Below, in pieces: positions 1 to 41,623 of a stretch of DNA of 64,000 bases. Under the pieces are notes generated by a model, which searched no databases, was not told where the DNA came from, and saw only the letters and a list, made by a program, of their open reading frames with translations. The stretch comes from Tridacna crocea. Its lineage: Eukaryota; Mollusca; Bivalvia; Cardiida; Cardiidae. Made by a program: the position numbers and the translations under genes. The first letter of the stretch is position 1. Each line of letters opens with the position of its first letter. The stretch spans positions 9,761,501 to 9,825,500 of the forward strand of contig OX031072.1 in the NCBI GenBank assembly GCA_943736015.1, in the 5' to 3' direction.

Positions 1-44
1 TGGATAATTTCAGAGAGAGAAGAGATTTGATTGGCTGATGGGAA

Positions 45-51
45 GGGGGGG
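45..51 (+). repeat. Unstable G-run 1 (in M1; recurs in every unit)
   Basis: G7 here; G7, G8 or G9 in other units (G9 in M5, M7 and M31). Length states are inherited within the higher-order blocks, so they behave as markers. M32 also gains an A before the run. Confidence 0.95.
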
Positions 52-139
52 AATAGCTGTTTATTCTTATTAACCTTTTACCACACAATGACGCCTTTTA
101 ACACCCCTGAAAGAGAAGGCTTTTGAAAATAATCTGAGG

Positions 140-176
140 AAAGGAGACAATGCAGGTTACCAGCATTTTCTCCTTT
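140..176. other. 37-nt near-perfect palindrome (in M1; recurs in every unit)
   Basis: Centred on T158. Left arm AAAGGAGA (140-147) pairs with TCTCCTTT (169-176), then after one C/T mismatch AATGC pairs with GCATT, then after an A/A mismatch GGT pairs with ACC: 16 of 18 positions are complementary. As RNA or single-stranded DNA it would fold as an 8-bp stem, one mismatch, a 5-bp stem and a 9-nt loop. It is present in all units, including the 61-bp-deletion forms (next copy 1813-1849). Function unknown; a protein-binding site or cruciform is possible. Confidence 0.9.
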
Positions 177-183
177 TCCCACA

Positions 184-330
184 ATGTTTACTACCCTATC
201 AAAGAAAAAGTTGATTTTTAGTTATTCTTACATCTTATTGTATCTTTATGGCCTACTTCTAAATTCTTCAAACAAGAACAAGATTTTTTAATCGGAAAAA
301 GTTTCCGCAACAGCAAACGGTTGCTTCTGA
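184..330 (+). other. Small ATG frame, 48 codons in most units, probably non-coding
   Basis: Starts ATGTTTACTACC just after the 37-nt palindrome. Residues about 7-27 read as lysines followed by a hydrophobic, tyrosine- and leucine-rich stretch that resembles a signal peptide. In M1 itself, and in M31, a T-to-A change makes an early TAA, and in M14, M20 and M25 the 61-bp deletion shifts the frame to give 70 codons (e.g. 21930-22142). Such unrestrained changes argue against a conserved peptide. Confidence 0.6.
293..325. other. Two adjacent small hairpins, lost in deletion units
   Basis: CGGAAA (293-298) pairs with TTTCCG (302-307) around AAG; four bases later AGCAA (312-316) pairs with TTGCT (321-325) around ACGG. 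Both stems lie inside the 61-bp segment (268-328 in M1) missing from M14, M20 and M25. M2 has a loop change (G1991) that leaves the stem intact. Confidence 0.8.
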
Positions 331-464
331 ATTTTATATTTTTGCGCAGCGATTAAACATAAAATTGACTTTTGACTCGCGCGGTCGTCAAAATTGGTTC
401 AATGTTTTCGTGACCCTGGTAAGAAAACAGGGAAAAACTTTGTTTACCTTTCTTTGATTTGTTT
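308..464 (+). repeat. Internal sub-repeat S1 (in M1; present in most units)
   Basis: Most diverged of six sub-repeats. It opens with CAACAG and contains GCGCGGTCGTCAA (380-391), then GTGACCCTGGTA, aligning with GACGGTTGTCAA and TCGTCATGGTA of S4. Period to the next copy is about 157-166 bp. In the deletion units M14, M20 and M25 the first 21 bases of this sub-repeat are missing. Confidence 0.6.
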
Positions 465-628
465 AACAGGTATCAGTTGCCTCCGAAAGTGTCAAAGTTG
501 ATTTTACGATTTTATGCGCAACACGTATCAGTCACATATGGGTGAGATGGTCATCGTAACCAAATCATTGGCCCTAGTGAGAGAAAATGAAAAAGAAAAA
601 TAGAAAAATCCCTATAATTGACTTTAAG
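465..628 (+). repeat. Internal sub-repeat S2 (in M1; recurs in every unit)
   Basis: Opens AACAGGTATCAG. Its core CACATATGGGTGAGATGG (533-550) followed by TCATCGTAAC aligns with CACATATGAGACGG then TAGTCAACGTAAC of S5 with a small indel. The period to S3 is about 163 bp. Confidence 0.7.
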
Positions 629-813
629 CAACAGTTGTCGTCTGCTATAAAATATATTCCGTAAGTCGATTTTGCATGTTTTCGCGGGTATGTAACCGGC
701 ACCTGCGAGACAATAGACAACCTAAATGGGTTTGTCGTCACGGTAAAAAAAGACTTGAGAAGTAAAAAACAGATATCAGAAATTAAGTTCCCTATATTTG
801 ATCCATTAAGCAA
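574..813 (-). other. Recurrent minus-strand frame of 79 codons, probably non-coding
   Basis: Runs antisense through S2 and S3 and recurs in almost every unit. It needs a TTG start. A second frame of 65 codons (883-1080 in M1), also starting with TTG, runs antisense through S4 and S5; the two share a VPVTYPRK-like stretch only because the DNA sub-repeats are homologous. M34's 5-bp deletion and M31's stop change alter the C-terminus freely. Confidence 0.75.
629..810 (+). repeat. Internal sub-repeat S3 (in M1; recurs in every unit)
   Basis: Opens CAACAGTTGTCGTCTGCTAT and contains GTAAGTCGATTTT (661), TTCGCGGGTATGTAACCGGC (681-700) and GTTTGTCGTCACGGTA. Each landmark lies exactly 180 bp before its partner in S4: 661/841, 681/861, 691/871. 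It also contains the TATAAAATA motif at 645-653. Confidence 0.85.
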
Positions 814-985
814 CAGGTGTCATCTGCTATGAAGTGGTCCGTAAGTCGATTTTTCGCGTTTTCGCGGATACGTAACCGGAACCTATGAGACGGTTGTCAA
901 CATAAATAGATTTGTCGTCATGGTATAAAGAGATTGGAGGAAAAAAATATACATTAAAAATTTTGTTCCATTTGTTTGATTTATG
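811..985 (+). repeat. Internal sub-repeat S4 (in M1; recurs in every unit)
   Basis: Opens CAACAGGTGTCATCTGCTAT, shares GTAAGTCGATTTT (841) with S3 and has the core CGTAACCGGAACCTATGAGA (871-890). A short tandem TTTTCGCG TTTTCGCG occurs at 851-866. The exact 180-bp register continues into S5 (871/1051). Confidence 0.85.
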
Positions 986-1153
986 CAATAAGAAGCATTC
1001 AGTCTTTTTTTAGCCACTTGTCGCATTATTTTCTGGGGTTTTCGCATGAGCGTAACTGGCACATATGAGACGGTAGTCAACGTAACTGGGTTTCTTGTTG
1101 TGGTTTGAAGAGATTAGAAAAATTACACTTCAGTTGCCTTTGTTTGATATATG
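986..1153 (+). repeat. Internal sub-repeat S5 (in M1; recurs in every unit)
   Basis: Opens CAATAAGAAGC and has the core CGTAACTGGCACATATGAGA (1051-1070) 180 bp after that of S4. Its first part (998-1038) is nearly identical to part of S6, much closer than the rest of the sub-repeats are to one another. Confidence 0.82.
998..1038 (+). repeat. 41-bp internal duplication, copy in S5
   Basis: Starts TTCAGTC and ends TTCTGGGG. It matches 1178-1218 at 40 of 41 positions (T1029 versus A1209), 180 bp apart. In M14, M20, M25 and M29 the T-run of this copy has a T-to-C change (22696, 32667, 40963, 47649). Confidence 0.93.
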
Positions 1154-1220
1154 CAACAGGAAGCAACTAAAAGAGTTTTCAGTCTTTTTTTAGCCACTTG
1201 TCGCATTAATTTCTGGGGCT
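1154..1220 (+). repeat. Internal sub-repeat S6, truncated (in M1; recurs in every unit)
   Basis: Opens CAACAGGAAGCAAC and follows S5 through TTCTGGGG (1211-1218), after which similarity to the sub-repeat family stops. It is the right edge of the sub-repeat domain; the rest of the unit up to the next S1 shows no sub-repeat signal. Confidence 0.75.
1178..1218 (+). repeat. 41-bp internal duplication, copy in S6
   Basis: Partner of 998-1038. In M10 and M16 this copy carries the same T-to-C change at the same position of the T-run (16247, 26218) that other units have in the S5 copy, hinting at sequence exchange between the two copies. Confidence 0.93.
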
Positions 1221-1251
1221 TTTTTACACTGTACATTGATCACTTTGGCTT

Positions 1252-1266
1252 ATTGAAAGTTTCAAT
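1252..1266. other. 15-nt perfect palindrome (in M1; recurs in every unit)
   Basis: ATTGAAA, a central G, then TTTCAAT: seven complementary pairs around one base. It lies just past the sub-repeat domain in the part of the unit that is not made of sub-repeats. The loop is too short for a simple hairpin, so a dimeric protein-binding site is the more natural reading if it has any role. Confidence 0.85.
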
Positions 1267-1317
1267 GTGCAGCATTTATTGTGGGCTGAGTTAGAAAAGC
1301 AAATCCAGTTAAGGGCT

Positions 1318-1324
1318 GGGGGGG
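1318..1324 (+). repeat. Unstable G-run 2 (in M1; recurs in every unit)
   Basis: G7 here; G6 in M9, M13-M15, M19, M20, M22-M25 and M27-M29; G8 in M11, M17, M34 and M35; G9 in M33. This run sets whether the downstream plus-strand frame is open for 79 or 111-112 codons. Confidence 0.95.
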
Positions 1325-1357
1325 TGCATCGAGGGTCTAAGGGAAGTAATTCTTGCA

Positions 1358-1397
1358 AGGGGCTTGAAAAGACCAAAACAAGGTCTGCTGCGCCCCT
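1358..1397. other. Nested hairpin (in M1; recurs in every unit)
   Basis: Outer stem AGGGGC (1358-1363) with GCCCCT (1392-1397); inner stem AGACC (1370-1374) with GGTCT (1382-1386) around AAAACAA; internal loop of 6 and 5 bases. Stems are unchanged in nearly all units; in M35 the two changes at 58064-58065 (GC to AT) replace the G that opens GCCCCT and so weaken the outer stem. Confidence 0.75.
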
Positions 1398-1610
1398 ATT
1401 TTCTTAAATGTTTGGCCATTTTCAGTGAAATCTGGCATGTGTGGATGGTGCATGCCTGGCAGTTCGCCAAGGACTGCACAACAGCCTTTAAAGAAGACTT
1501 TAAATCCACTTTTATGCCTTTTTTTTCACTGTTTTTTATCGAGAAATTATGGCGCCATTTTGGAGCGATTTTGAAGCTCTCTGATTGGCTGTTGGATATC
1601 TGATTGGCTA

Positions 1611-1660
1611 TTGGTTCCCATTCTGATTTGGCTCCTTGGTTCCCATTCTGATTTCCTTAA
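1611..1660 (+). repeat. Two 25-bp direct repeats (in M1; recurs in every unit)
   Basis: TTGGTTCCCATTCTGATTT begins at 1611 and again at 1636, followed by GGCTCC and then CCTTAA. Together with flanking CTGATTGG motifs this forms a short decayed minisatellite at the end of the unit, next to the HindIII site. Confidence 0.9.
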
Positions 1661-1664
1661 AGCT

Positions 1665-1688
1665 TCTCTGATTGGATAATTTCAGAGA
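1665..1688. other. Inverted repeat across the HindIII/unit-phase junction
   Basis: TCTCTGA (1665-1671) pairs with TCAGAGA (1682-1688) around the 10-nt loop TTGGATAATT. Present in every unit; the M2 change C1689 lies just outside the stem. Confidence 0.7.
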
Positions 1689-3345
1689 CAGAAGAGATTT
1701 GATTGGCTGATGGGAAGGGGGGGGAATAGCTGTTTATTCTTATTAACCTTTTACCACACAATGACGCCTTTTAACACCCCTGAAAGAGAAGGCTTTTGAA
1801 AATAATCTGAGGAAAGGAGACAATGCAGGTTACCAGCATTTTCTCCTTTTCCCACAATGTTTACTACCCTATCAAAGAAAAAGTTGATTTTTAGTTATCC
1901 TTACATCTTATTGTATCTTTATGGCCTACTTCTAAATTCTTCAAACAAGAACAAGATTTTTTTATCGGAAAAAGTTTCCGCAACAGCAAAGGGTTGCTTC
2001 TGAATTTTATATTTTTGCGCAGCGATTAAACATAAAATTGACTTTTGACTCGCGCGGTCGTCAAAATTGGTTCAATGTTTTCGTGACCCTGGTAAGAAAA
2101 CAGGGAAAAACTTTGTTTACCTTTCTTTGATTTGTTTAACAGGTATCAGTTGCCTCCGAAAGTGTCAAAGTTGATTTTACGATTTTATGCGCAACACGTA
2201 TCAGTCACATATGGGTGAGATGGTCATCGTAACCAAATCATTGGCCCTAGTGAGAGAAAATGAAAAAGAAAAATAGAAAAATCCCTATAATTGACTTTAA
2301 GCAACAGTTGTCGTCTGCTATAAAATATATTCCGTAAGTCGATTTTGCATGTTTTCGCGGGTATGTAACCGGCACCTGCGAGACAATAGACAACCTAAAT
2401 GGGTTTGTCGTCACGGTAAAAAAAGACTTGAGAAGTAAAAAACAGATATCAGAAATTAAGTTCCCTATATTTGATCCATTAAGCAACAGGTGTCATCTGC
2501 TATGAAGTGGTCCGTAAGTCGATTTTTCGCGTTTTCGCGGATACGTAACCGGAACCTATGAGACGGTTGTCAACATAAATAGATTTGTCGTCATGGTATA
2601 AAGAGATTGGAGGAAAAAAATATACATTAAAAATTTTGTTCCATTTGTTTGATTTATGCAATAAGAAGCATTCAGTCTTTTTTTAGCCACTTGTCGCATT
2701 ATTTTCTGGGGTTTTCGCATGAGCGTAACTGGCACATATGAGACGGTAGTCAACGTAACTGGGTTTCTTGTTGTGGTTTGAAGAGATTAGAAAAATTACA
2801 CTTCAGTTGCCTTTGTTTGATATATGCAACAGGAAGCAACTAAAAGAGTTTTCAGTCTTTTTTTAGCCACTTGTCGCATTAATTTCTGGGGCTTTTTTAC
2901 ACTGTACATTGATCACTTTGGCTTATTGAAAGTTTCAATGTGCAGCATTTATTGTGGGCTGAGTTAGAAAAGCAAATCCAGTTAAGGGCTGGGGGGGTGC
3001 ATCGAGGGTCTAAGGGAAGTAATTCTTGCAAGGGGCTTGAAAAGACCAAAACAAGGTCTGCTGCGCCCCTATTTTCTTAAATGTTTGGCCATTTTCAGTG
3101 AAATCTGGCATGTGTGGATGGTGCATGCCTGGCAGTTCGCCAAGGACTGCACAACAGCCTTTAAAGAAGACTTTAAATCCACTTTTATGCCTTTTCTTTC
3201 ACTGTTTTTTATCGAGAAATTATGGCGCCATTTTGGAGCGATTTTGAAGCTCTCTGATTGGCTGTTGGATATCTGATTGGCTATTGGTTCCCATTCTGAT
3301 TTGGCTCCTTGGTTCCCATTCTGATTTCCTTAAAGCTTCTCTGAT
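1673..3345 (+). repeat. Satellite unit M2
   Basis: 1,673 bp, G8/G7. Private changes: C1689 (in the GA-rich segment), C1899, and G1991 in the loop of the second small hairpin. C3196 interrupts the T-run after ATGCC and is shared only with M7. Confidence 0.96.
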
Positions 3346-5018
3346 TGGATAATTTCAGAGAGAGAAGAGATTTGATTGGCTGATGGGAAGGGGGGGGAAT
3401 AGCTGTTTATTCTTATTAACCTTTTACCACACAATGACGCCTTTTAACACCCCTGAAAGAGAAGGCTTTTGAAAATAATCTGAGGAAAGGAGACAATGCA
3501 GGTTACCAGCATTTTCTCCTTTTCCCACAATGTTTACTACCCTATCAAAGAAAAAGTTGATTTTTAGTTATTCTTACATCTTATTGTATCTTTATGGCCT
3601 ACTTCTAAATTCTTCAAACAAGAACAAGATTTTTTTATCGGAAAAAGTTTCCGCAACAGCAAACGGTTGCTTCTGAATTTTATATTTTTGCGCAGCGATT
3701 AAACATAAAATTGACTTTTGACTCGCGCGGTCGTCAAAATTGGTTCAATGTTTTCGTGACCCTGGTAAGAAAACAGGGAAAAACCTTGTTTACCTTTCTT
3801 TGATTTGTTTAACAGGTATCAGTTGCCTCCGAAAGTGTCAAAGTTGATTTTACGATTTTATGCGCAGCACGTATCAGTCACATATGGGTGAGATGGTCAT
3901 CGTAACCAAATCATTGGCCCTAGTGAGAGAAAATGAAAAAGAAAAATAGAAAAATCCCTATAATTGACTTTAAGCAACAGTTGTCGTCTGCTATAAAATA
4001 TATTCCGTAAGTCGATTTTGCATGTTTTCGCGGGTATGTAACCGGCACCTGCGAGACAATAGACAACCTAAATGGGTTTGTCGTCACGGTAAAAAAAGAC
4101 TTGAGAAGTAAAAAACAGATATCAGAAATTAAGTTCCCTATATTTGATCCATTAAGCAACAGGTGTCATCTGCTATGAAGTGGTCCGTTAGTCGATTTTT
4201 CGCGTTTTCGCGGATACGTAACCGGAACCTATGAGACGGTTGTCAACATAAATAGATTTGTCGTCATGGTATAAAGAGATTGGAGGAAAAAAATATACAT
4301 TAAAAATTTTGTTCCATTTGTTTGATTTATGCAATAAGAAGCATTCAGTCTTTTTTTAGCCACTTGTCGAATTATTTTCTGGGGTTTTCGCATGAGCGTA
4401 ACTGGCACATATGAGACGGTAGTCAACGTAACTGGGTTTCTTGTTGTGGTTTGAAGAGATTAGAAAAATTACACTTCAGTTGCCTTTGTTTGATATATGC
4501 AACAGGAAGCAACTAAAAGAGTTTTCAGTCTTTTTTTAGCCACTTGTCGCATTAATTTCTGGGGCTTTTTTACACTGTACATTGATCACTTTGGCTTATT
4601 GAAAGTTTCAATGTGCAGCATTTATTGTGGGCTGAGTTAGAAAAGCAAATCCAGTTAAGGGCTGGGGGTGTGCATCGAGGGTCTAAGGGAAGTAATTCTT
4701 GCAAGGGGCTTGAAAAGACCAAAACAAGGTCTGCTGCGCCCCTATTTTCTTAAATGTTTGGCCATTTTCAGTGAAATCTGGCATGTGTGGATGGTGCATG
4801 CCTGGCAGTTCGCCAAGGACTGCACAACAGCCTTTAAAGAAGACTTTAAATCCACTTTTATGCCTTTTTTTTCACTGTTTTTTATCGAGAAATTATGGCG
4901 CCATTTTGGAGCGATTTTGAAGCTCTCTGATTGGCTGTTGGATATCTGATTGGCTATTGGTTCCCATTCTGATTTGGCTCCTTGGTTCCCATTCTGATTT
5001 CCTTAAAGCTTCTCTGAT
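3346..5018 (+). repeat. Satellite unit M3, unusually many private changes
   Basis: 1,673 bp, G8 and a second G-run interrupted by T4669. Other private changes: C3785, G3867, T4189 (GTAAG to GTTAG) and A4370 (CGCATT to CGAATT). None of these five changes is seen in another unit, which suggests this copy has escaped recent homogenisation. Confidence 0.96.
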
Positions 5019-6691
5019 TGGATAATTTCAGAGAGAGAAGAGATTTGATTGGCTGATGGGAAGGGGGGGGAATAGCTGTTTATTCTTATTAACCTTTTAC
5101 CACACAATGACGCCTTTTAACACCCCTGAAAGAGAAGGCTTTTGAAAATAATCTGAGGAAAGGAGACAATGCAGGTTACCAGCATTTTCTCCTTTTCCCA
5201 CAATGTTTACTACCCTATCAAAGAAAAAGTTGATTTTTAGTTATTCTTACATCTTATTGTATCTTTATGGCCTACTTCTAAATTCTTCAAACAAGAACAA
5301 GATTTTTTTATCGGAAAAAGTTTCCGCAACAGCAAACGGTTGCTTCTGAATTTTATATTTTTGCGCAGCGATTAAACATAAAATTGACTTTTGACTCGCG
5401 CGGTCGTCAAAATTGGTTCAATGTTTTCGTGACCCTGGTAAGAAAACAGGGAAAAACTTTGTTTACCTTTCTTTGATTTGTTTAACAGGTATCAGTTGCC
5501 TCCGAAAGTGTCAAAGTTGATTTTACGATTTTATGCGCAACACGTATCAGTCACATATGGGTGAGATGGTCATCGTAACCAAATCATTGGCCCTAGTGAG
5601 AGAAAATGAAAAAGAAAAATAGAAAAATCCCTATAATTGACTTTAAGCAACAGTTGTCGTCTGCTATAAAATATATTCCGTAAGTCGATTTTGCATGTTT
5701 TCGCGGGTATGTAACCGGCACCTGCGAGACAATAGACAACCTAAATGGGTTTGTCGTCACGGTAAAAAAAGACTTGAGAAGTAAAAAACAGATATCAGAA
5801 ATTAAGTTCCCTATATTTGATCCATTAAGCAACAGGTGTCATCTGCTATGAAGTGGTCCGTAAGTCGATTTTTCGCGTTTTCGCGGATACGTAACCGGAA
5901 CCTATGAGACGGTTGTCAACATAAATAGATTTGTCGTCATGGTATAAAGAGATTGGAGGAAAAAAATATACATTAAAAATTTTGTTCCATTTGTTTGATT
6001 TATGCAATAAGAAGCATTCAGTCTTTTTTTAGCCACTTGTCGCATTATTTTCTGGGGTTTTCGCATGAGCGTAACTGGCACATATGAGACGGTAGTCAAC
6101 GTAACTGGGTTTCTTGTTGTGGTTTGAAGAGATTAGAAAAATTACACTTCAGTTGCCTTTGTTTGATATATGCAACAGGAAGCAACTAAAAGAGTTTTCA
6201 GTCTTTTTTTAGCCACTTGTCGCATTAATTTCTGGGGCTTTTTTACACTGTACATTGATCACTTTGGCTTATTGAAAGTTTCAATGTGCAGCATTTATTG
6301 TGGGCTGAGTTAGAAAAGCAAATCCAGTTAAGGGCTGGGGGGGTGCATCGAGGGTCTAAGGGAAGTAATTCTTGCAAGGGGCCTGAAAAGACCAAAACAA
6401 GGTCTGCTGCGCCCCTATTTTCTTAAATGTTTGGCCATTTTCAGTGAAATCTGGCATGTGTGGATGGTGCATGCCTGGCAGTTCGCCAAGGACTGCACAA
6501 CAGCCTTTAAAGAAGACTTTAAATCCACTTTTATGCCTTTTTTTTCACTGTTTTTTATCGAGAAATTATGGCGCCATTTTGGAGCGATTTTGAAGCTCTC
6601 TGATTGGCTGTTGGATATCTGATTGGCTATTGGTTCCCATTCTGATTTGGCTCCTTGGTTCCCATTCTGATTTCCTTAAAGCTTCTCTGAT
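5019..6691 (+). repeat. Satellite unit M4
   Basis: 1,673 bp, G8/G7. C6383 changes GGGGCTTG to GGGGCCTG just inside the outer stem of the nested hairpin, and removes the TTG that would start the recurrent plus-strand reading frame. Confidence 0.96.
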
Positions 6692-8365
6692 TGGATAATT
6701 TCAGAGAGAGAAGAGATTTGATTGGCTGATGGGAAGGGGGGGGGAATAGCTGTTTATTCTTATTAACCTTTTACCACACAATGACGCCTTTTAACACCCT
6801 TGAAAGAGAAGGCTTTTGAAAATAATCTGAGGAAAGGAGACAATGCAGGTTACCAGCATTTTCTCCTTTTCCCACAATGTTTACTACCCTATCAAAGAAA
6901 AAGTTGATTTTTAGTTATTCTTACATCTTATTGTATCTTTATGGCCTACTTCTAAATTCTTCAAACAAGAACAAGATTTTTTTATCGGAAAAAGTTTCCG
7001 CAACAGCAAACGGTTGCTTCTGAATTTTATATTTTTGCGCAGCGATTAAACATAAAATTGACTTTTGACTCGCGCGGTCGTCAAAATTGGTTCAATGTTT
7101 TCGTGACCCTGGTAAGAAAACAGGGAAAAACTTTGTTTACCTTTCTTTGATTTGTTTAACAGGTATCAGTTGCCTCCGAAAGTGTCAAAGTTGATTTTAC
7201 GATTTTATGCGCAACACGTATCAGTCACATATGGGTGAGATGGTCATCGTAACCAAATCATTGGCCCTAGTGAGAGAAAATGAAAAAGAAAAATAGAAAA
7301 ATCCCTATAATTGACTTTAAGCAACAGTTGTCGTCTGCTATAAAATATATTCCGTAAGTCGATTTTGCATGTTTTCGCGGGTATGTAACCGGCACCTGCG
7401 AGACAATAGACAACCTAAATGGGTTTGTCGTCACGGTAAAAAAAGACTTGAGAAGTAAAAAACAGATATCAGAAATTAAGTTCCCTATATTTGATCCATT
7501 AAGCAACAGGTGTCATCTGCTATGAAGTGGTCCGTAAGTCGATTTTTCGCGTTTTCGCGGATACGTAACCGGAACCTATGAGACGGTTGTCAACATAAAT
7601 AGATTTGTCGTCATGGTATAAAGAGATTGGAGGAAAAAAATATACATTAAAAATTTTGTTCCATTTGTTTGATTTATGCAATAAGAAGCATTCAGTCTTT
7701 TTTTAGCCACTTGTCGCATTATTTTCTGGGGTTTTCGCATGAGCGTAACTGGCACATATGAGACGGTAGTCAACGTAACTGGGTTTCTTGTTGTGGTTTG
7801 AAGAGATTAGAAAAATTACACTTCAGTTGCCTTTGTTTGATATATGCAACAGGAAGCAACTAAAAGAGTTTTCAGTCTTTTTTTAGCCACTTGTCGCATT
7901 AATTTCTGGGGCTTTTTCACACTGTACATTGATCACTTTGGCTTATTGAAAGTTTCAATGTGCAGCATTTATTGTGGGCTGAGTTAGAAAAGCAAATCCA
8001 GTTAAGGGCTGGGGGGGTGCATCGAGGGTCTAAGGGAAGTAATTCTTGCAAGGGGCTTGAAAAGACCAAAACAAGGTCTGCTGCGCCCCTATTTTCTTAA
8101 ATGTTTGGCCATTTTCAGTGAAATCTGGCATGTGTGGATGGTGCATGCCTGGCAGTTCGCCAAGGACTGCACAACAGCCTTTAAAGAAGACTTTAAATCC
8201 ACTTTTATGCCTTTTTTTTCACTGTTTTTTATCGAGAAATTATGGCGCCATTTTGGAGCGATTTTGAAGCTCTCTGATTGGCTGTTGGATATCTGATTGG
8301 CTATTGGTTCCCATTCTGATTTGGCTCCTTGGTTCCCATTCTGATTTCCTTAAAGCTTCTCTGAT
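6692..8365 (+). repeat. Satellite unit M5
   Basis: 1,674 bp, G9/G7. T6800 (ACACCCTTG) is shared only with M7. C7918 (CTTTTTCACAC) is shared with M7, M12, M18, M21 and M26. Confidence 0.96.
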
Positions 8366-10037
8366 TGGATAATTTCAGAGAGAGAAGAGATTTGATTGGC
8401 TGATGGGAAGGGGGGGAATAGCTGTTTATTCTTATTAACCTTTTACCACACAATGACGCCTTTTAACACCCCTGAAAGAGAAGGCTTTTGAAAATAATCT
8501 GAGGAAAGGAGACAATGCAGGTTACCAGCATTTTCTCCTTTTCCCACAATGTTTACTACCCTATCAAAGAAAAAGTTGATTTTTAGTTATTCTTACATCT
8601 TATTGTATCTTTATGGCCTACTTCTAAATTCTTCAAACAAGAACAAGATTTTTTTATCGGAAAAAGTTTCCGCAACAGCAAACGGTTGCTTCTGAATTTT
8701 ATATTTTTGCGCAGCGATTAAACATAAAATTGACTTTTGACTCGCGCGGTCGTCAAAATTGGTTCAATGTTTTCGTGACCCTGGTAAGAAAACAGGGAAA
8801 AACTTTGTTTACCTTTCTTTGATTTGTTTAACAGGTATCAGTTGCCTCCGAAAGTGTCAAAGTTGATTTTACGATTTTATGCGCAACACGTATCAGTCAC
8901 ATATGGGTGAGATGGTCATCGTAACCAAATCATTGGCCCTAGTGAGAGAAAATGAAAAAGAAAAATAGAAAAATCCCTATAATTGACTTTAAGCAACAGT
9001 TGTCGTCTGCTATAAAATATATTCCGTAAGTCGATTTTGCATGTTTTCGCGGGTATGTAACCGGCACCTGCGAGACAATAGACAACCTAAATGGGTTTGT
9101 CGTCACGGTAAAAAAAGACTTGAGAAGTAAAAAACAGATATCAGAAATTAAGTTCCCTATATTTGATCCATTAAGCAACAGGTGTCATCTGCTATGAAGT
9201 GGTCCGTAAGTCGATTTTTCGCGTTTTCGCGGATACGTAACCGGAACCTATGAGACGGTTGTCAACATAAATAGATTTGTCGTCATGGTATAAAGAGATT
9301 GGAGGAAAAAAATATACATTAAAAATTTTGTTCCATTTGTTTGATTTATGCAATAAGAAGCATTCAGTCTTTTTTTAGCCACTTGTCGCATTATTTTCTG
9401 GGGTTTTCGCATGAGCGTAACTGGCACATATGAGACGGTAGTCAACGTAACTGGGTTTCTTGTTGTGGTTTGAAGAGATTAGAAAAATTACACTTCAGTT
9501 GCCTTTGTTTGATATATGCAACAGGAAGCAACTAAAAGAGTTTTCAGTCTTTTTTTAGCCACTTGTCGCAATAATTTCTGGGGCTTTTTTACACTGTACA
9601 TTGATCACTTTGGCTTATTGAAAGTTTCAATGTGCAGCATTTATTGTGGGCTGAGTTAGAAAAGCAAATCCAGTTAAGGGCTGGGGGGGTGCATCGAGGG
9701 TCTAAGGGAAGTAATTCTTGCAAGGGGCTTGAAAAGACCAAAACAAGGTCTGCTGCGCCCCTATTTTCTTAAATGTTTGGCCATTTTCAGTGAAATCTGG
9801 CATGTGTGGATGGTGCATGCCTGGCAGTTCGCCAAGGACTGCACAACAGCCTTTAAAGAAGACTTTAAATCCACTTTTATGCCTTTTTTTTCACTGTTTT
9901 TTATCGAGAAATTATGGCGCCATTTTGGAGCGATTTTGAAGCTCTCTGATTGGCTGTTGGATATCTGATTGGCTATTGGTTCCCATTCTGATTTGGCTCC
10001 TTGGTTCCCATTCTGATTTCCTTAAAGCTTCTCTGAT
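8366..10037 (+). repeat. Satellite unit M6
   Basis: 1,672 bp, G7/G7. One private change, A9571, in the second copy of the 41-bp internal duplication. Confidence 0.96.
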
Positions 10038-11711
10038 TGGATAATTTCAGAGAGAGAAGAGATTTGATTGGCTGATGGGAAGGGGGGGGGAATAGCTGTT
10101 TATTCTTATTAACCTTTTACCACACAATGACGCCTTTTAACACCCTTGAAAGAGAAGGCTTTTGAAAATAATCTGAGGAAAGGAGACAATGCAGGTTACC
10201 AGCATTTTCTCCTTTTCCCACAATGTTTACTACCCTATCAAAGAAAAAGTTGATTTTTAGTTATTCTTACATCTTATTGTATCTTTATGGCCTACTTCTA
10301 AATTCTTCAAACAAGAACAAGATTTTTTTATCGGAAAAAGTTTCCGCAACAGCAAACGGTTGCTTCTGAATTTTATATTTTTGCGCAGCGATTAAACATA
10401 AAATTGACTTTTGACTCGCGCGGTCGTCAAAATTGGTTCAATGTTTTCGTGACCCTGGTAAGAAAACAGGGAAAAACTTTGTTTACCTTTCTTTGATTTG
10501 TTTAACAGGTATCAGTTGCCTCCGAAAGTGTCAAAGTTGATTTTACGATTTTATGCACAACACGTATCAGTCACATATGGGTGAGATGGTCATCGTAACC
10601 AAATCATTGGCCCTAGTGAGAGAAAATGAAAAAGAAAAATAGAAAAATCCCTATAATTGACTTTAAGCAACAGTTGTCGTCTGCTATAAAATATATTCCG
10701 TAAGTCGATTTTGCATGTTTTCGCGGGTATGTAACCAGCACCTGCGAGACAATAGACAACCTAAATGGGTTTGTCGTCACGGTAAAAAAAGACTTGAGAA
10801 GTAAAAAACAGATATCAGAAATTAAGTTCCCTATATTTGATCCATTAAGCAACAGGTGTCATCTGCTATGAAGTGGTCCGTAAGTCGATTTTTCGCGTTT
10901 TCGCGGATACGTAACCGGAACCTATGAGACGGTTGTCAACATAAATAGATTTGTCGTCATGGTATAAAGAGATTGGAGGAAAAAAATATACATTAAAAAT
11001 TTTGTTCCATTTGTTTGATTTATGCAATAAGAAGCATTCAGTCTTTTTTTAGCCACTTGTCGCATTATTTTCTGGGGTTTTCGCATGAGCGTAACTGGCA
11101 CATATGAGACGGTAGTCAACGTAACTGGGTTTCTTGTTGTGGTTTGAAGAGATTAGAAAAATTACACTTCAGTTGCCTTTGTTTGATATATGCAACAGGA
11201 AGCAACTAAAAGAGTTTTCAGTCTTTTTTTAGCCACTTGTCGCATTAATTTCTGGGGCTTTTTCACACTGTACATTGATCACTTTGGCTTATTGAAAGTT
11301 TCAATGTGCAGCATTTATTGTGGGCTGAGTTAGAAAAGCAAATCCAGTTAAGGGCTGGGGGGGTGCATCGAGGGTCTAAGGGAAGTAATTCTTGCAAGGG
11401 GCTTGAAAAGACCAAAACAAGGTCTGCTGCGCCCCTATTTTCTTAAATGTTTGGCCATTTTCAGTGAAATCTGGCATGTGTGGATGGTGCATGCCTGGCA
11501 GTTCGCCAAGGACTGCACAACAGCCTTTAAAGAAGACTTTAAATCCACTTTTATGCCTTTTCTTTCACTGTTTTTTATCGAGAAATTATGGCGCCATTTT
11601 GGAGCGATTTTGAAGCTCTCTGATTGGCTGTTGGATATCTGATTGGCTATTGGTTCCCATTCTGATTTGGCTCCTTGGTTCCCATTCTGATTTCCTTAAA
11701 GCTTCTCTGAT
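10038..11711 (+). repeat. Satellite unit M7
   Basis: 1,674 bp, G9/G7. It shares T10146 and C11264 with M5, and C11562 with M2. Private changes are A10557 and A10737. This looks like a mosaic of neighbouring variants. Confidence 0.96.
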
Positions 11712-13384
11712 TGGATAATTTCAGAGAGAGAAGAGATTTGATTGGCTGATGGGAAGGGGGGGGAATAGCTGTTTATTCTTATTAACCTTTTACCACACAA
11801 TGACGCCTTTTAACACCCCTGAAAGAGAAGGCTTTTGAAAATAATCTGAGGAAAGGAGACAATGCAGGTTACCAGCATTTTCTCCTTTTCCCACAATGTT
11901 TACTACCCTATCAAAGAAAAAGTTGATTTTTAGTTATTCTTACATCTTATTGTATCTTTATGGCCTACTTCTAAATTCTTCAAACAAGAACAAGATTTTT
12001 TTATCGGAAAAAGTTTCCGCAACAGCAAACGGTTGCTTCTGAATTTTATATTTTTGCGCAGCGATTAAACATAAAATTGACTTTTGACTCGCGCGGTCGT
12101 CAAAATTGGTTCAATGTTTTCGTGACCCTGGTAAGAAAACAGGGAAAAACTTTGTTTACCTTTCTTTGATTTGTTTAACAGGTATCAGTTGCCTCCGAAA
12201 GTGTCAAAGTTGATTTTACGATTTTATGCGCAACACGTATCAGTCACATATGGGTGAGATGGTCATCGTAACCAAATCATTGGCCCTAGTGAGAGAAAAT
12301 GAAAAAGAAAAATAGAAAAATCCCTATAATTGACTTTAAGCAACAGTTGTCGTCTGCTATAAAATATATTCCGTAAGTCGATTTTGCATGTTTTCGCGGG
12401 TATGTAACCGGCACCTGCGAGACAATAGACAACCTAAATGGGTTTGTCGTCACGGTAAAAAAAGACTTGAGAAGTAAAAAACAGATATCAGAAATTAAGT
12501 TCCCTATATTTGATCCATTAAGCAACAGGTGTCATCTGCTATGAAGTGGTCCGTAAGTCGATTTTTCGCGTTTTCGCGGATACGTAACCGGAACCTATGA
12601 GACGGTTGTCAACATAAATAGATTTGTCGTCATGGTATAAAGAGATTGGAGGAAAAAAATATACATTAAAATTTTTGTTCCATTTGTTTGATTTATGCAA
12701 TAAGAAGCATTCAGTCTTTTTTTAGCCACTTGTCGCATTATTTTCTGGGGTTTTCGCATGAGCGTAACTGGCACATATGAGACGGTAGTCAACGTAACTG
12801 GGTTTCTTGTTGTGGTTTGAAGAGATTAGAAAAATTACACTTCAGTTGCCTTTGTTTGATATATGCAACAGGAAGCAACTAAAAGAGTTTTCAGTCTTTT
12901 TTTAGCCACTTGTCGCATTAATTTCTGGGGCTTTTTTACACTGTACATTGATCACTTTGGCTTATTGAAAGTTTCAATGTGCAGCATTTATTGTGGGCTG
13001 AGTTAGAAAAGCAAATCCAGTTAAGGGCTGGGGGGGTGCATCGAGGGTCTAAGGGAAGTAATTCTTGCAAGGGGCTTGAAAAGACCAAAACAAGGTCTGC
13101 TGCGCCCCTATTTTCTTAAATGTTTGGCCATTTTCAGTGAAATCTGGCATGTGTGGATGGTGCATGCCTGGCAGTTCGCCAAGGACTGCACAACAGCCTT
13201 TAAAGAAGACTTTAAATCCACTTTTATGCCTTTTTTTTCACTGTTTTTTATCGAGAAATTATGGCGCCATTTTGGAGCGATTTTGAAGCTCTCTGATTGG
13301 CTGTTGGATATCTGATTGGCTATTGGTTCCCATTCTGATTTGGCTCCTTGGTTCCCATTCTGATTTCCTTAAAGCTTCTCTGAT
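11712..13384 (+). repeat. Satellite unit M8
   Basis: 1,673 bp, G8/G7. A single private change, T12672, in the A/T run before GTTCC. Confidence 0.96.
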
Positions 13385-15056
13385 TGGATAATTTCAGAGA
13401 GAGAAGAGATTTGATTGGCTGATGGGAAGGGGGGGGAATAGCTGTTTATTCTTATTAACCTTTTACCACACAATGACGCCTTTTAACACCCCTGAAAGAG
13501 AAGGCTTTTGAAAATAATCTGAGGAAAGGAGACAATGCAGGTTACCAGCATTTTCTCCTTTTCCCACAATGTTTACTACCCTATCAAAGAAAAAGTTGAT
13601 TTTTAGTTATTCTTACATCTTATTGTATCTTTATGGCCTACTTCTAAATTCTTCAAACAAGAACAAGATTTTTTTATCGGAAAAAGTTTCCGCAACAGCA
13701 AACGGTTGCTTCTGAATTTTATATTTTTGCGCAGCGATTAAACATAAAATTGACTTTTGACTCGCGCGGTCGTCAAAATTGGTTCAATGTTTTCGTGACC
13801 CTGGTAAGAAAACAGGGAAAAACTTTGTTTACCTTTCTTTGATTTGTTTAACAGGTATCAGTTGCCTCCGAAAGTGTCAAAGTTGATTTTACGATTTTAT
13901 GCGCAACACGTATCAGTCACATATGGGTGAGATGGTCATCGTAACCAAATCATAGGCCCTAGTGAGAGAAAATGAAAAAGAAAAATAGAAAAATCCCTAT
14001 AATTGACTTTAAGCAACAGTTGTCGTCTGCTATAAAATATATTCCGTAAGTCGATTTTGCATGTTTTCGCGGGTATGTAACCGGCACCTGCGAGACAATA
14101 GACAACCTAAATGGGTTTGTCGTCACGGTAAAAAAAGACTTGAGAAGTAAAAAACAGATATCAGAAATTAAGTTCCCTATATTTGATCCATTAAGCAACA
14201 GGTGTCATCTGCTATGAAGTGGTCCGTAAGTCGATTTTTTGCGTTTTCGCGGATACGTAACCGGAACCTATGAGACGGTTGTCAACATAAATAGATTTGT
14301 CGTCATGGTATAAAGAGATTGGAGGAAAAAAATATACATTAAAAATTTTGTTCCATTTGTTTGATTTATGCAATAAGAAGCATTCAGTCTTTTTTTAGCC
14401 ACTTGTCGCATTATTTTCTGGGGTTTTCGCATGAGCGTAACTGGCACATATGAGACGGTAGTCAACGTAACTGGGTTTCTTGTTGTGGTTTGAAGAGATT
14501 AGAAAAATTACACTTCAGTTGCCTTTGTTTGATATATGCAACAGGAAGCAACTAAAAGAGTTTTCAGTCTTTTTTTAGCCACTTGTCGCATTAATTTCTG
14601 GGGCTTTTTTACACTGTACATTGATCACTTTGGCTTATTGAAAGTTTCAATGTGCAGCATTTATTGTGGGCTGAGTTAGAAAAGCAAATCCAGTTAAGGG
14701 CTGGGGGGTGCATCGAGGGTCTAAGGGAAGTAATTCTTGCAAGGGGCTTGAAAAGACCAAAACAAGGTCTGCTGCGCCCCTATTTTCTTAAATGTTTGGC
14801 CATTTTCAGTGAAATCTGGCATGTGTGGATGGTGCATGCCTGGCAGTTCGCCAAGGACTGCACAACAGCCTTTAAAGAAGACTTTAAATCCACTTTTATG
14901 CCTTTTTTTTCACTGTTTTTTATCGAGAAATTATGGCGCCATTTTGGAGCGATTTTGAAGCTCTCTGATTGGCTGTTGGATATCTGATTGGCTATTGGTT
15001 CCCATTCTGATTTGGCTCCTTGGTTCCCATTCTGATTTCCTTAAAGCTTCTCTGAT
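13385..15056 (+). repeat. Satellite unit M9
   Basis: 1,672 bp, G8/G6. It carries A13954 (CATAGG) and T14240 (TTTTTTGCG), two markers also found in the 61-bp-deletion units, and the first G6 second run in the array. Confidence 0.96.
14652..14987 (+). other. Open frame of 111 codons, probably non-coding
   Basis: Longest recurrent plus-strand frame, shown in M9. It would need a GTG start and is open only when G-run 2 is G6 or G9; in G7 or G8 units the frame is cut to 79 codons starting at TTG, and in M4 to 63. The translation has many W and F residues and no motif I recognise. No ATG start, splice structure or frame-preserving indel pattern supports translation. I consider it a by-product of the satellite sequence. 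Confidence 0.8.
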
Positions 15057-16728
15057 TGGATAATTTCAGAGAGAGAAGAGATTTGATTGGCTGATGGGAA
15101 GGGGGGGAATAGCTGTTTATTCTTATTAACCTTTTACCACACAATGACGCCTTTTAACACCCCTGAAAGAGAAGGCTTTTGAAAATAATCTGAGGAAAGG
15201 AGACAATGCAGGTTACCAGCATTTTCTCCTTTTCCCACAATGTTTACTACCCTATCAAAGAAAAAGTTGATTTTTAGTTATTCTTACATCTTATTGTATC
15301 TTTATGGCCTACTTCTAAATTCTTCAAACAAGAACAAGATTTTTTTATCGGAAAAAGTTTCCGCAACAGCAAACGGTTGCTTCTGAATTTTATATTTTTG
15401 CGCAGCGATTAAACATAAAATTGACTTTTGACTCGCGCGGTCGTCAAAATTGGTTCAATGTTTTCGTGACCCTGGTAAGAAAACAGGGAAAAACTTTGTT
15501 TACCTTTCTTTGATTTGTTTAACAGGTATCAGTTGCCTCCGAAAGTGTCAAAGTTGATTTTACGATTTTATGCGCAACACGTATCAGTCACATATGGGTG
15601 AGATGGTCATCGTAACCAAATCATAGGCCCTAGTGAGAGAAAATGAAAAAGAAAAATAGAAAAATCCCTATAATTGACTTTAAGCAACAGTTGTCGTCTG
15701 CTATAAAATATATTCCGTAAGTCGATTTTGCATGTTTTCGCGGGTATGTAACCGGCACCTGCGAGACAATAGACAACCTAAATGGGTTTGTCGTCACGGT
15801 AAAAAAAGACTTGAGAAGTAAAAAACAGATATCAGAAATTAAGTTCCCTATATTTGATCCATTAAGCAACAGGTGTCATCTGCTATGAAGTGGTCCGTAA
15901 GTCGATTTTTTGCGTTTTCGCGGATACGTAACCGGAACCTATGAGACGGTTGTCAACATAAATAGATTTGTCGTCATGGTATAAAGAGATTGGAGGAAAA
16001 AAATATACATTAAAAATTTTGTTCCATTTGTTTGATTTATGCAATAAGAAGCATTCAGTCTTTTTTTAGCCACTTGTCGCATTATTTTCTGGGGTTTTCG
16101 CATGAGCGTAACTGGCACATATGAGACGGTAGTCAACGTAACTGGGTTTCTTGTTGTGGTTTGAAGAGATTAGAAAAATTACACTTCAGTTGCCTTTGTT
16201 TGATATATGCAACAGGAAGCAACTAAAAGAGTTTTCAGTCTTTTTTCAGCCACTTGTCGCATTAATTTCTGGGGCTTTTTTACACTGTACATTGATCACT
16301 TTGGCTTATTGAAAGTTTCAATGTGCAGCATTTATTGTGGGCTGAGTTAGAAAAGCAAATCCAGTTAAGGGCTGGGGGGGTGCATCGAGGGTCTAAGGGA
16401 AGTAATTCTTGCAAGGGGCTTGAAAAGACCAAAACAAGGTCTGCTGCGCCCCTATTTTCTTAAATGTTTGGCCATTTTCAGTGAAATCTGGCATGTGTGG
16501 ATGGTGCATGCCTGGCAGTTCGCCAAGGACTGCACAACAGCCTTTAAAGAAGACTTTAAATCCACTTTTATGCCTTTTTTTTCACTGTTTTTTATCGAGA
16601 AATTATGGCGCCATTTTGGAGCGATTTTGAAGCTCTCTGATTGGCTGTTGGATATCTGATTGGCTATTGGTTCCCATTCTGATTTGGCTCCTTGGTTCCC
16701 ATTCTGATTTCCTTAAAGCTTCTCTGAT
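15057..16728 (+). repeat. Satellite unit M10, first unit of the 9,971-bp higher-order repeat
   Basis: 1,672 bp, G7/G7. Markers: A15625 (CATAGG), T15911 (TTTTTTGCG), and C16247 (TTTTTTCAGCC in the second 41-bp copy). M16 repeats the last two exactly 9,971 bp later but lacks the first, so the duplicated match starts between 15,625 and 15,911. Confidence 0.96.
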
Positions 16729-18401
16729 TGGATAATTTCAGAGAGAGAAGAGATTTGATTGGCTGATGGGAAGGGGGGGAATAGCTGTTTATTCTTATTA
16801 ACCTTTTACCACACAATGACGCCTTTTAACACCCCTGAAAGAGAAGGCTTTTGAAAATAATCTGAGGAAAGGAGACAATGCAGGTTACCAGCATTTTCTC
16901 CTTTTCCCACAATGTTTACTACCCTATCAAAGAAAAAGTTGATTTTTAGTTATTCTTACATCTTATTGTATCTTTATGGCCTACTTCTAAATTCTTCAAA
17001 CAAGAACAAGATTTTTTTATCGGAAAAAGTTTCCGCAACAGCAAACGGTTGCTTCTGAATTTTATATTTTTGCGCAGCGATTAAACATAAAATTGACTTT
17101 TGACTCGCGCGGTCGTCAAAATTGGTTCAATGTTTTCGTGACCCTGGTAAGAAAACAGGGAAAAACTTTGTTTACCTTTCTTTGATTTGTTTAACAGGTA
17201 TCAGTTGCCTCCGAAAGTGTCAAAGTTGATTTTACGATTTTATGCGCAACACGTATCAGTCACATATGGGTGAGATGGTCATCGTAACCAAATCATTGGC
17301 CCTAGTGAGAGAAAATGAAAAAGAAAAATAGAAAAATCCCTATAATTGACTTTAAGCAACAGTTGTCGTCTGCTATAAAATATATTCCGTAAGTCGATTT
17401 TGCATGTTTTCGCGGGTATGTAACCGGCACCTGCGAGACAATAGACAACCTAAATGGGTTTGTCGTCACGGTAAAAAAAGACTTGAGAAGTAAAAAACAG
17501 ATATCAGAAATTAAGTTCCCTATATTTGATCCATTAAGCAACAGGTGTCATCTGCTATGAAGTGGTCCGTAAGTCGATTTTTCGCGTTTTCGCGGATACG
17601 TAACCGGAACCTATGAGACGGTTGTCAACATAAATAGATTTGTCGTCATGGTATAAAGAGATTGGAGGAAAAAAATATACATTAAAAATTTTGTTCCATT
17701 TGTTTGATTTATGCAATAAGAAGCATTCAGTCTTTTTTTAGCCACTTGTCGCATTATTTTCTGGGGTTTTCGCATGAGCGTAACTGGCACATATGAGACG
17801 GTAGTCAACGTAACTGGGTTTCTTGTTGTGGTTTGAAGAGATTAGAAAAATTACACTTCAGTTGCCTTTGTTTGATATATGCAACAGGAAGCAACTAAAA
17901 GAGTTTTCAGTCTTTTTTTAGCCACTTGTCGCATTAATTTCTGGGGCTTTTTTACACTGTACATTGATCACTTTGGCTTATTGAAAGTTTCAATGTGCAG
18001 CATTTATTGTGGGCTGAGTTAGAAAAGCAAATCCAGTTAAGGGCTGGGGGGGGTGCATCGAGGGTCTAAGGGAAGTAATTCTTGCAAGGGGCTTGAAAAG
18101 ACCAAAACAAGGTCTGCTGCGCCCCTATTTTCTTAAATGTTTGGCCATTTTCAGTGAAATCTGGCATGTGTGGATGGTGCATGCCTGGCAGTTCGCCAAG
18201 GACTGCACAACAGCCTTTAAAGAAGACTTTAAATCCACTTTTATGCCTTTTTTTTCACTGTTTTTTATCGAGAAATTATGGCGCCATTTTGGAGCGATTT
18301 TGAAGCTCTCTGATTGGCTGTTGGATATCTGATTGGCTATTGGTTCCCATTCTGATTTGGCTCCTTGGTTCCCATTCTGATTTCCTTAAAGCTTCTCTGA
18401 T
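16729..18401 (+). repeat. Satellite unit M11
   Basis: 1,673 bp, G7/G8. Counterpart M17 has the same length and the same G7/G8 state. Confidence 0.96.
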
Positions 18402-20074
18402 TGGATAATTTCAGAGAGAGAAGAGATTTGATTGGCTGATGGGAAGGGGGGGGAATAGCTGTTTATTCTTATTAACCTTTTACCACACAATGACGCCTTT
18501 TAACACCCCTGAAAGAGAAGGCTTTTGAAAATAATCTGAGGAAAGGAGACAATGCAGGTTACCAGCATTTTCTCCTTTTCCCACAATGTTTACTACCCTA
18601 TCAAAGAAAAAGTTGATTTTTAGTTATTCTTACATCTTATTGTATCTTTATGGCCTACTTCTAAATTCTTCAAACAAGAACAAGATTTTTTTATCGGAAA
18701 AAGTTTCCGCAACAGCAAACGGTTGCTTCTGAATTTTATATTTTTGCGCAGCGATTAAACATAAAATTGACTTTTGACTCGCGCGGTCGTCAAAATTGGT
18801 TCAATGTTTTCGTGACCCTGGTAAGAAAACAGGGAAAAACTTTGTTTACCTTTCTTTGATTTGTTTAACAGGTATCAGTTGCCTCCGAAAGTGTCAAAGT
18901 TGATTTTACGATTTTATGCGCAACACGTATCAGTCACATATGGGTGAGATGGTCATTGTAACCAAATCATTGGCCCTAGTGAGAGAAAATGAAAAAGAAA
19001 AATAGAAAAATCCCTATAATTGACTTTAAGCAACAGTTGTCGTCTGCTATAAAATATATTCCGTAAGTCGATTTTGCATGTTTTCGCGGGTATGTAACCG
19101 GCACCTGCGAGACAATAGACAACCTAAATGGGTTTGTCGTCACGGTAAAAAAAGACTTGAGAAGTAAAAAACAGATATCAGAAATTAAGTTCCCTATATT
19201 TGATCCATTAAGCAACAGGTGTCATCTGCTATGAAGTGGTCCGTAAGTCGATTTTTCGCGTTTTCGCGGATACGTAACCGGAACCTATGAGACGGTTGTC
19301 AACATAAATAGATTTGTCGTCATGGTATAAAGAGATTGGAGGAAAAAAATATACATTAAAAATTTTGTTCCATTTGTTTGATTTATGCAATAAGAAGCAT
19401 TCAGTCTTTTTTTAGCCACTTGTCGCATTATTTTCTGGGGTTTTCGCATGAGCGTAACTGGCACATATGAGACGGTAGTCAACGTAACTGGGTTTCTTGT
19501 TGTGGTTTGAAGAGATTAGAAAAATTACACTTCAGTTGCCTTTGTTTGATATATGCAACAGGAAGCAACTAAAAGAGTTTTCAGTCTTTTTTTAGCCACT
19601 TGTCGCATTAATTTCTGGGGCTTTTTCACACTGTACATTGATCACTTTGGCTTATTGAAAGTTTCAATGTGCAGCATTTATTGTGGGCTGAGTTAGAAAA
19701 GCAAATCCAGTTAAGGGCTGGGGGGGTGCATCGAGGGTCTAAGGGAAGTAATTCTTGCAAGGGGCTTGAAAAGACCAAAACAAGGTCTGCTGCGCCCCTA
19801 TTTTCTTAAATGTTTGGCCATTTTCAGTGAAATCTGGCATGTGTGGATGGTGCATGCCTGGCAGTTCGCCAAGGACTGCACAACAGCCTTTAAAGAAGAC
19901 TTTAAATCCACTTTTATGCCTTTTTTTTCACTGTTTTTTATCGAGAAATTATGGCGCCATTTTGGAGCGATTTTGAAGCTCTCTGATTGGCTGTTGGATA
20001 TCTGATTGGCTATTGGTTCCCATTCTGATTTGGCTCCTTGGTTCCCATTCTGATTTCCTTAAAGCTTCTCTGAT
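18402..20074 (+). repeat. Satellite unit M12
   Basis: 1,673 bp, G8/G7. T18957 (GGTCATTG) and C19627 (CTTTTTCACAC). T18957 is shared only with M18, 9,971 bp downstream. Confidence 0.96.
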
Positions 20075-40013: not shown

Positions 40014-41623
40014 TGGATAATTTCAGAGAGAGAAGAGATTTGATTGGCTGATGGGAAGGGGGGGAATAGCTGTTTATTCTTATTAACCTTTTACCACACA
40101 ATGACGCCTTTTAACACCCCTGAAAGAGAAGGCTTTTGAAAATAATCTGAGGAAAGGAGACAATGCAGGTTACCAGCATTTTCTCCTTTTCCCACAATGT
40201 TTACTACCCTATCAAAGAAAAAGTTGATTTTTAGTTATTCTTACATCTTATTGTATCTTTATGGCCTACTTCTAAATTCTGAATTTTATATTTTTGCGCA
40301 GCGATTAAACATAAAATTGACTTTTGACTCGCGCGGTCGTCAAAATTGGTTCAATGTTTTCGTGACCCTGGTAAGAAAACAGGGAAAAACTTTGTTTACC
40401 TTTCTTTGATTTGTTTAACAGGTATCAGTTGCCTCCGAAAGTGTCAAAGTTGATTTTACGATTTTATGCGCAACACGTATCAGTCACATATGGGTGAGAT
40501 GGTCATCGTAACCAAATCATAGGCCCTAGTGAGAGAAAATGAAAAAGAAAAATAGAAAAATCCCTATAATTGACTTTAAGCAACAGTTGTCGTCTGCTAT
40601 AAAATATATTCCGTAAGTCGATTTTGCATGTTTTCGCGGGTATGTAACCGGCACCTGCGAGACAATAGACAACCTAAATGGGTTTGTCGTCACGGTAAAA
40701 AAAGACTTGAGAAGTAAAAAACAGATATCAGAAATTAAGTTCCCTATATTTGATCCATTAAGCAACAGGTGTCATCTGCTATGAAGTGGTCCGTAAGTCG
40801 ATTTTTTGCGTTTTCGCGGATACGTAACCGGAACCTATGAGACGGTTGTCAACATAAATAGATTTGTCGTCATGGTATAAAGAGATTGGAGGAAAAAAAT
40901 ATACATTAAAAATTTTGTTCCATTTGTTTGATTTATGCAGTAAGAAGCATTCAGTCTTTTTTCAGCCACTTGTCGCATTATTTTCTGGGGTTTTCGCATG
41001 AGCGTAACTGGCACATATGAGACGGTAGTCAACGTAACTGGGTTTCTTGTTGTGGTTTGAAGAGATTAGAAAAATTACACTTCAGTTGCCTTTGTTTGAT
41101 ATATGCAACAGGAAGCAACTAAAAGAGTTTTCAGTCTTTTTTTAGCCACTTGTCGCATTAATTTCTGGGGCTTTTTTACACTGTACATTGATCACTTTGG
41201 CTTATTGAAAGTTTCAATGTGCAGCATTTATTGTGGGCTGAGTTAGAAAAGCAAATCCAGTTAAGGGCTGGGGGGTGCATCGAGGGTCTAAGGGAAGTAA
41301 TTCTTGCAAGGGGCTTGAAAAGACCAAAACAAGGTCTGCTGCGCCCCTATTTTCTTAAATGTTTGGCCATTTTCAGTGAAATCTGGCATGTGTGGATGGT
41401 GCATGCCTGGCAGTTCGCCAAGGACTGCACAACAGCCTTTAAAGAAGACTTTAAATCCACTTTTATGCCTTTTTTTTCACTGTTTTTTATCGAGAAATTA
41501 TGGCGCCATTTTGGAGCGATTTTGAAGCTCTCTGATTGGCTGTTGGATATCTGATTGGCTATTGGTTCCCATTCTGATTTGGCTCCTTGGTTCCCATTCT
41601 GATTTCCTTAAAGCTTCTCTGAT
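40014..41623 (+). repeat. Satellite unit M25, 61-bp deletion form
   Basis: 1,610 bp, G7/G6. Deletion junction at 40280/40281; A40521, T40807, G40940 and C40963. Third and last copy of the deletion haplotype in the window. Confidence 0.97.

Follow-up and report, generated by a model that had tools for sequence, protein, structure and literature searches.

A tandem array from Tridacna crocea whose 1,673-bp unit holds old sub-repeats beside a CpG-poor block

A homogeneous, apparently non-coding array

The window, the whole 64,000-base stretch of Tridacna crocea DNA that was analysed, is a single unbroken head-to-tail array of a unit of ~1,673 bp, as traced with anchors and a multiple alignment (Table 1). 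Unit lengths fall into two groups, with 35 of 38 at 1,669-1,674 bp and three at 1,610 bp. The short units (starts 21747, 31718 and 40014) have a 61-bp deletion in common, covering unit positions 264-324. A 63-bp palindrome at 127-189, described below, was considered as the piece missing from these units and was ruled out by the position of the deletion. The deletion takes away the first 18 bases of the first sub-repeat (S1), and a few matching bases are found at the break.

Table 1. Features of the array and of its unit.
Feature	Position	Strand	Basis and remarks
Array of ~1,673-bp unit	1..64000	.	38 complete units plus 634 bp; anchors, multiple alignment
S1, 157 bp, most diverged sub-repeat	307..463	+	S2-S5 profile, junction motif
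S2, 164 bp	464..627	+	S3-S5 profile; S2-S4 alignment with 0/500 shuffles as good
S3, 182 bp	628..809	+	S3-S4 identity 78%, 0/500 shuffles as good
S4, 175 bp	810..984	+	Pairwise alignments, profiles
S5, 168 bp	985..1152	+	Core S4-S5 alignment with 0/1000 shuffles as good
S6, truncated sixth sub-repeat	1153..1222	+	Likeness to S5 head alone
Other, CpG-poor block, first part	1223..1673	.	Continues at 1674-1979, unit positions 1-306; CpG observed/expected 0.27

Units are nearly identical to one another, pairs differing by a mean of 3.9 substitutions (0.23%; range 0-11, n = 38 units, with gaps left uncounted), and 29 exact distinct sequences occur among the 38 complete units. So small a difference between units marks the amplification of the unit as very recent, and old tandem sub-repeats inside a recently amplified unit agree with the original prediction of re-amplification as a 1.67-kb unit. 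Longer blocks are repeated exactly: positions 15626-24580 are identical to 25597-34551 (8,955 bp, at a lag of 9,971, or six units with one of them short), and 30091-36196 are identical to 38387-44492 (6,106 bp, at a lag of 8,296, or five units with one of them short). Blocks of several units have recently been duplicated, in six-unit and five-unit higher-order steps inside the array. Unequal exchange that shifts several units at a time would be expected to produce exact block duplications at such multi-unit lags. Copies homogenised as by concerted evolution and a long uninterrupted tandem array are properties of satellite DNA, and both are found here, as are the internal diverged subrepeats of complex satellites. 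On balance, we regard the array as composite (complex) satellite DNA of an ordinary kind, whose past is partly readable.

The longest open stretch in the window is 96 amino acids. Among the 50 open stretches listed, 26 recur as copies of the other 24 in units further along; those 24 were scanned with Pfam, and no family scored above cut-off (three sub-cut-off matches, E 0.029, 0.03 and 0.16). Across positions 1-5100, Rfam gave no match at gathering score, with four sub-threshold matches, and no tRNA genes were found. Judged from the open stretches and the Pfam, Rfam and tRNA scans, the array appears to be non-coding. A distant blastn search of phage and plasmid records returned no relatives of the unit, five exact-pattern scans of prokaryotic genome contigs and viral contigs gave no match, and no relative of the 96-aa stretch was confirmed in viral contigs. 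As the collections searched were those of prokaryotes, viruses and plasmids, the absence of relatives there means little. The 1,673-bp unit was not met in the literature searched, which is not to claim that it is unpublished.

Sub-repeats and their register

Positions 307-1222 of the unit are built of tandem sub-repeats, each opened by GCAACAG, or by a sequence close to it, as a junction motif at the six starts listed in Table 1; cut points used in the computations deviate from these starts by at most 4 bases. Of the six older sub-repeats that had been claimed from a first inspection, five are found, and the sixth proves to be a fragment of only ~70 bp that resembles S5 alone. Measured from the junction motif, the first two are 157 and 164 bp long, in keeping with the spacing of about 157-166 bp that had been given for them. 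The later ones measure 182, 175 and 168 bp, where exactly 180 bp had been expected.

A register of 180 bp is nonetheless prominent within the block. Autocorrelation of 308-1220 is strongest by far at lag 180 (z 11.9), followed by lags 360 (z 4.4) and 159 (z 4.1), and the best ungapped direct match within the unit, 658-1042 against 838-1222, scores 83 as compared to a maximum of 18 in 60 dinucleotide shuffles. This match is uneven: 151 of its 385 positions differ, and identity in 30-bp windows drops to 0.17-0.33 near 775-849 and 940-999, where lags of 178, 182 and 168 fit better than 180. The proposed register applies to the cores of S3-S5 and to the heads of S5 and S6, and fails as a full repeat length. 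Two of the landmarks on which it had been based, GTAAGTCG at 661/841 and TTCAGTC at 998/1178, recur exactly as described, while the GTAAC cores lie one base away from the positions given, at 692/872/1052, and GTAAC is additionally present off register at 556 and 1082.

Kinship among the sub-repeats was assessed by aligning all 15 pairs among S1-S6 and comparing each alignment with 500 shuffles. Five pairs were equalled by no shuffle (S2-S4, S3-S4, S3-S5, S4-S5 and S5-S6), and four by 1-10 shuffles (S1-S4, S1-S5, S2-S3 and S2-S5). The remaining six were equalled by at least 30, namely S1-S2 (65), S1-S3 (30) and S6 with each of S1-S4, and it is these pairs that could be put down to chance similarity or an alignment artefact. 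The score at lag 180 and the profile tests given below refute chance for S2-S5, and as an account of the sub-repeats in general it has a negligible probability. The original prediction, that the sub-repeats align better than shuffled sequence, thus survives for S2-S5, and is less secure for S1: of the four pairs that it forms with S2-S5, two are matched by at least 30 of 500 shuffles.

Profiles for S1 and S2 were made without the copy to be tested. A profile of S3-S5 scores S2 at 11.7 bits (positions 495-605), as compared to 7.6 for the best of 300 shuffled units, and by this measure S2 is a distant member of the sub-repeat family. S1 scores 10.2 bits at 381-459 with a profile of S2-S5 (best of 300 shuffled units, 5.6), and just 5.9 bits with the S3-S5 profile, with 2 of 300 shuffled units higher, so that its putative membership depends mainly on the profile test. 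Divergence is 22% between S3 and S4, with S5 the next closest, and reaches about half among the others in a forced global alignment. A tree of the sub-repeats sets S3, S4 and S5 apart from S1 and S2 in 95% of 200 bootstraps. That ancestral repeats were duplicated and then diverged, as had been suggested, agrees with tandem sub-repeats of this age.

A 45-bp stretch in the head of S5 (998-1042) is 96% identical to 1178-1222 in S6. No likeness was detected between S6 and S1-S4 (at least 73 of 500 shuffles as good), and the S5 head, its first ~50 bp, shows no detectable kinship with the heads of S3 and S4 (of 1000 shuffles, 516 do as well for S3 and 154 for S4). Because S6 matches the S5 head alone, and this head is unlike those of S3 and S4, S5 and S6 have a more recent local event in common, either a duplication or a conversion. 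A T-to-C change is present at 1011 in the S5 of units u14, u20, u25 and u29, and at the equivalent position 1191 in the S6 of units u10 and u16, 180 bp apart and in different units. Either conversion between sub-repeats or recurrence could account for these matching changes.

Derivation of the sub-repeat core from protein-coding sequence, as tandem exons, was also considered. Read in one frame of the + strand, the cores of S3, S4 and S5 beat column-permuted controls (p 0.0085), yet this is one of six frames tried and holds 3 stops, differences between the cores are not significantly concentrated at one codon position (p 0.26), and none of the 24 scanned stretches matched a Pfam family above cut-off. 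A coding origin was rejected as highly improbable.

Rotational positioning of nucleosomes is signalled by a dinucleotide period of 10-10.5 bp. In the sub-repeat block, the strongest A/T-dinucleotide period between 9 and 12 bp is 9.4 bp, outside that interval, with 1 of 200 shuffles as strong, in what is a weak test of positioning. The five sub-repeat lengths all lie within 135-195 bp, which passages of PMC5895790 give as the monomer range for nucleosome-length satellites. By length, the block is compatible with a nucleosome-length ancestral satellite.

CpG contrast and CpG mutation

CpG content sets the two parts of the unit sharply apart. The CpG observed/expected ratio is 1.22 in 307-1222, as compared to 0.27 in the other 757 bp, at a similar G+C (0.37 in the sub-repeat block and 0.39 in the remainder), and 38 of the 47 CpGs of the unit fall inside 307-1222 (2,000 shuffles: mean 25.8, maximum 37). 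When the circular unit is divided into its two best parts from CpGs only, with the repeats disregarded, a CpG-rich arc is obtained at 293-1082, and 0 of 300 dinucleotide shuffles equal this split. The left edge of the arc fits the repeat boundary at 307; the right edge lies 140 bp before 1222, so that the end of S5 and S6 are CpG-poor. From this contrast, the two parts seem to have had different histories.

No traces of the sub-repeats were found in the 757-bp block on either strand, where 196 of 200 shuffles (+ strand) and 17 of 200 (- strand) were as good. The original prediction had a satellite capturing about 750 bp of other sequence. A block of that size, free of sub-repeat similarity and with a different CpG content, does exist; the direction of the capture does not follow from it. 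Within the block, the imperfect palindrome at 127-189 has 31-nt arms that are 77% complementary and separated by 1 nt, and its score of 17 is reached by none of 200 shuffled units (best, 13). DNA fold energy across 110-210 is unremarkable (z -1.7), with 13 of 200 shuffles folding as well. Four copies of TGATTGG, a motif picked after it had been seen, lie within ~125 bp at window positions 1582-1706, from the end of the unit into the next; 3 of 1000 shuffled units have two copies within 130 bp and none has more. We take TGATTGG to be an inverted CCAAT box of NF-Y-like type. A 25-bp tandem duplication (TTGGTTCCCATTCTGATTT twice) is also present in the CpG-poor block, at 1599-1654, and is repeated throughout the array.

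The differences between units show how CpGs change at present. The 38 units deviate from the majority base in 40 distinct instances, 10 of them on CpG bases, which make up 94 of 1,673 positions (Fisher p 4e-5, odds ratio 6.1), and 9 of these 10 are C-to-T or G-to-A, transitions typical of CpG decay. With the count confined to the sub-repeat block, 9 of 29 departures fall on CpG bases (76 of 916; p 4e-4), and both tests rest on small event counts. Judged from this pattern of base changes, the array now seems to mutate like methylated DNA. With CpG bases changing about six times more often today, and CpGs in the sub-repeat block above expectation, the CpG-rich block has probably not been long under the present regime.

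CpG loss in the older past was approached through the sub-repeats themselves. Between S3 and S4, six CpGs are kept and six changed; the counts are three and six for S4/S5, and one and eight for S3/S5. Changes of the CpG to TpG/CpA type make up 6 of 6, 4 of 6 and 7 of 8 of the changed CpGs, respectively, where simulation gives about half in the absence of a CpG excess. A simulation of S3/S4 alone (400 runs) disfavours six-fold CpG mutation, with six CpGs kept in 0 of 400 runs and 4.5% by kept fraction, and is fitted by zero excess (58%). A second simulation, with a slightly different mutation model, covered three pairs under three assumed ancestors with 300 runs each. For S3/S4, none to two-fold CpG mutation fits; judged on the fraction kept, six-fold comes to 3-5%. 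For S4/S5, none to six-fold all fit, with six-fold at 7-16% by kept fraction. For S3/S5, two- to six-fold does better than none, so small a kept fraction being reached in 1-11% of runs with zero excess. On these models, some CpG decay is likely to have taken place during the older divergence of the sub-repeats, and the three pairs give no single rate. The CpG pattern could also have been shaped by selection for CpGs or by biased conversion.

Probable origin of the unit

We favour, with a probability of roughly 0.55, a relic tandem repeat and DNA of another history that were amplified and homogenised as one unit. A tandem repeat of ~160-180 bp would have left a short relic of five-and-a-bit copies, which would then have been joined to ~757 bp of DNA long depleted of CpGs, as methylated DNA is. 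The composite may next have been amplified, by unequal exchange or by rolling-circle amplification, and homogenised. The array would now sit in a setting of rapid CpG change, as found in methylated heterochromatin. Heterochromatin is its likely state, and recombination-driven turnover could keep it up with no need of an encoded product. We infer both the fusion and the order of the parts: a satellite may have captured the 757 bp, the reverse may have occurred, or both may have belonged to one mobile element. The order of events put forward in the original prediction is reasonable.

In alpha-satellite-type higher-order repeats, old monomers with a register near 170 bp lie inside a younger multimeric unit. 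The present unit is alike in holding old repeats of a similar register inside a younger unit, and differs in that 757 bp of it are free of monomers and in that the core motif of the CENP-B box has 0 matches in the consensus unit, both strands considered. Satellites with subrepeats, satellites derived from mobile elements and units of kilobase length are all on record in passages of PMC8122249, PMC5874043, PMC5895790 and PMC3648361, and the mollusc satellites described in part of PMC5874043 include some with subrepeats. Nearly all long-monomer satellites of Vicia faba are without internal subrepeats, according to passages of PMC5895790. By description, complex satellites and macrosatellites are likewise made of long homogenised units in tandem, with subrepeats in the mollusc cases, whereas the present unit joins a CpG-rich sub-repeat block to a CpG-poor one.

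A mobile element whose core is tandemly repeated is the strongest rival, although an unlikely one. The whole unit would then be a transposable element of the non-autonomous kind, similar to Helentrons/DINEs or to CvA/pearl elements, turned satellite, and no free satellite would have captured anything. DINEs have two blocks flanking central tandem repeats, of ~150 bp in DINE-TR1, and CvA has subterminal inverted repeats and a tandemly repeated core, as described in parts of PMC9957191 and PMC5874043. A repeated core between unrelated blocks is what is seen here, and the palindrome in the other block could also belong to such an element. As in the Helitron-derived DINE-TR1, two unrelated blocks of the unit enclose a small number of tandem repeats, of comparable length in both cases; in DINE-TR1, the central repeats alone were expanded, according to the same part of PMC9957191, whereas in this array the whole composite was, and the ends of a Helentron were not identified in the unit. 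CvA/pearl-related elements of bivalves likewise combine a repeated core with flanking blocks, and passages of PMC5874043 propose a link between them and satellites. Unlike them, the window holds no tetranucleotide array by TRF. No inverted repeats significantly above shuffles were found around the core: the best such pair to span it (257-283/1093-1119) scores 19 as compared to a mean of 16.1 and a maximum of 23 in 60 shuffles. No Pfam family scored above cut-off in the open stretches scanned, and the sharp difference in CpG content between core and flanks is unexpected had both always travelled together.

Locus-specific amplification is a further unlikely origin, in which a single-copy region carrying a minisatellite of about five copies became a 1.67-kb macrosatellite with no earlier satellite stage, as with human D4Z4 (3.3 kb) and NBL2 (1.4 kb; passages of PMC8122249). 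It would suit the presence of just five-and-a-bit sub-repeats, ending at 1222, and the promoter-like look of the four TGATTGG copies, a motif chosen post hoc. Nothing decisive stands against it, but the sub-repeats are far older than the array and their spacing is of the satellite class.

The most speculative version, which we consider doubtful, keeps the joining of two parts and gives the CpG-rich block a source outside the methylated genome of the host. A foreign or mobile sequence, largely unmethylated, would have been joined to an old methylated fragment of the host and recently swept into a methylated satellite, and CpG content within the unit would record the order of joining.

The unit layers several times in one sequence, with old divergence of the sub-repeats, a join of parts that contrast in CpG content, and a recent amplification accompanied by block duplications. 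Should the CpG contrast turn out to date the join, the same approach could be used on other composite satellites; otherwise, the array is ordinary satellite DNA.
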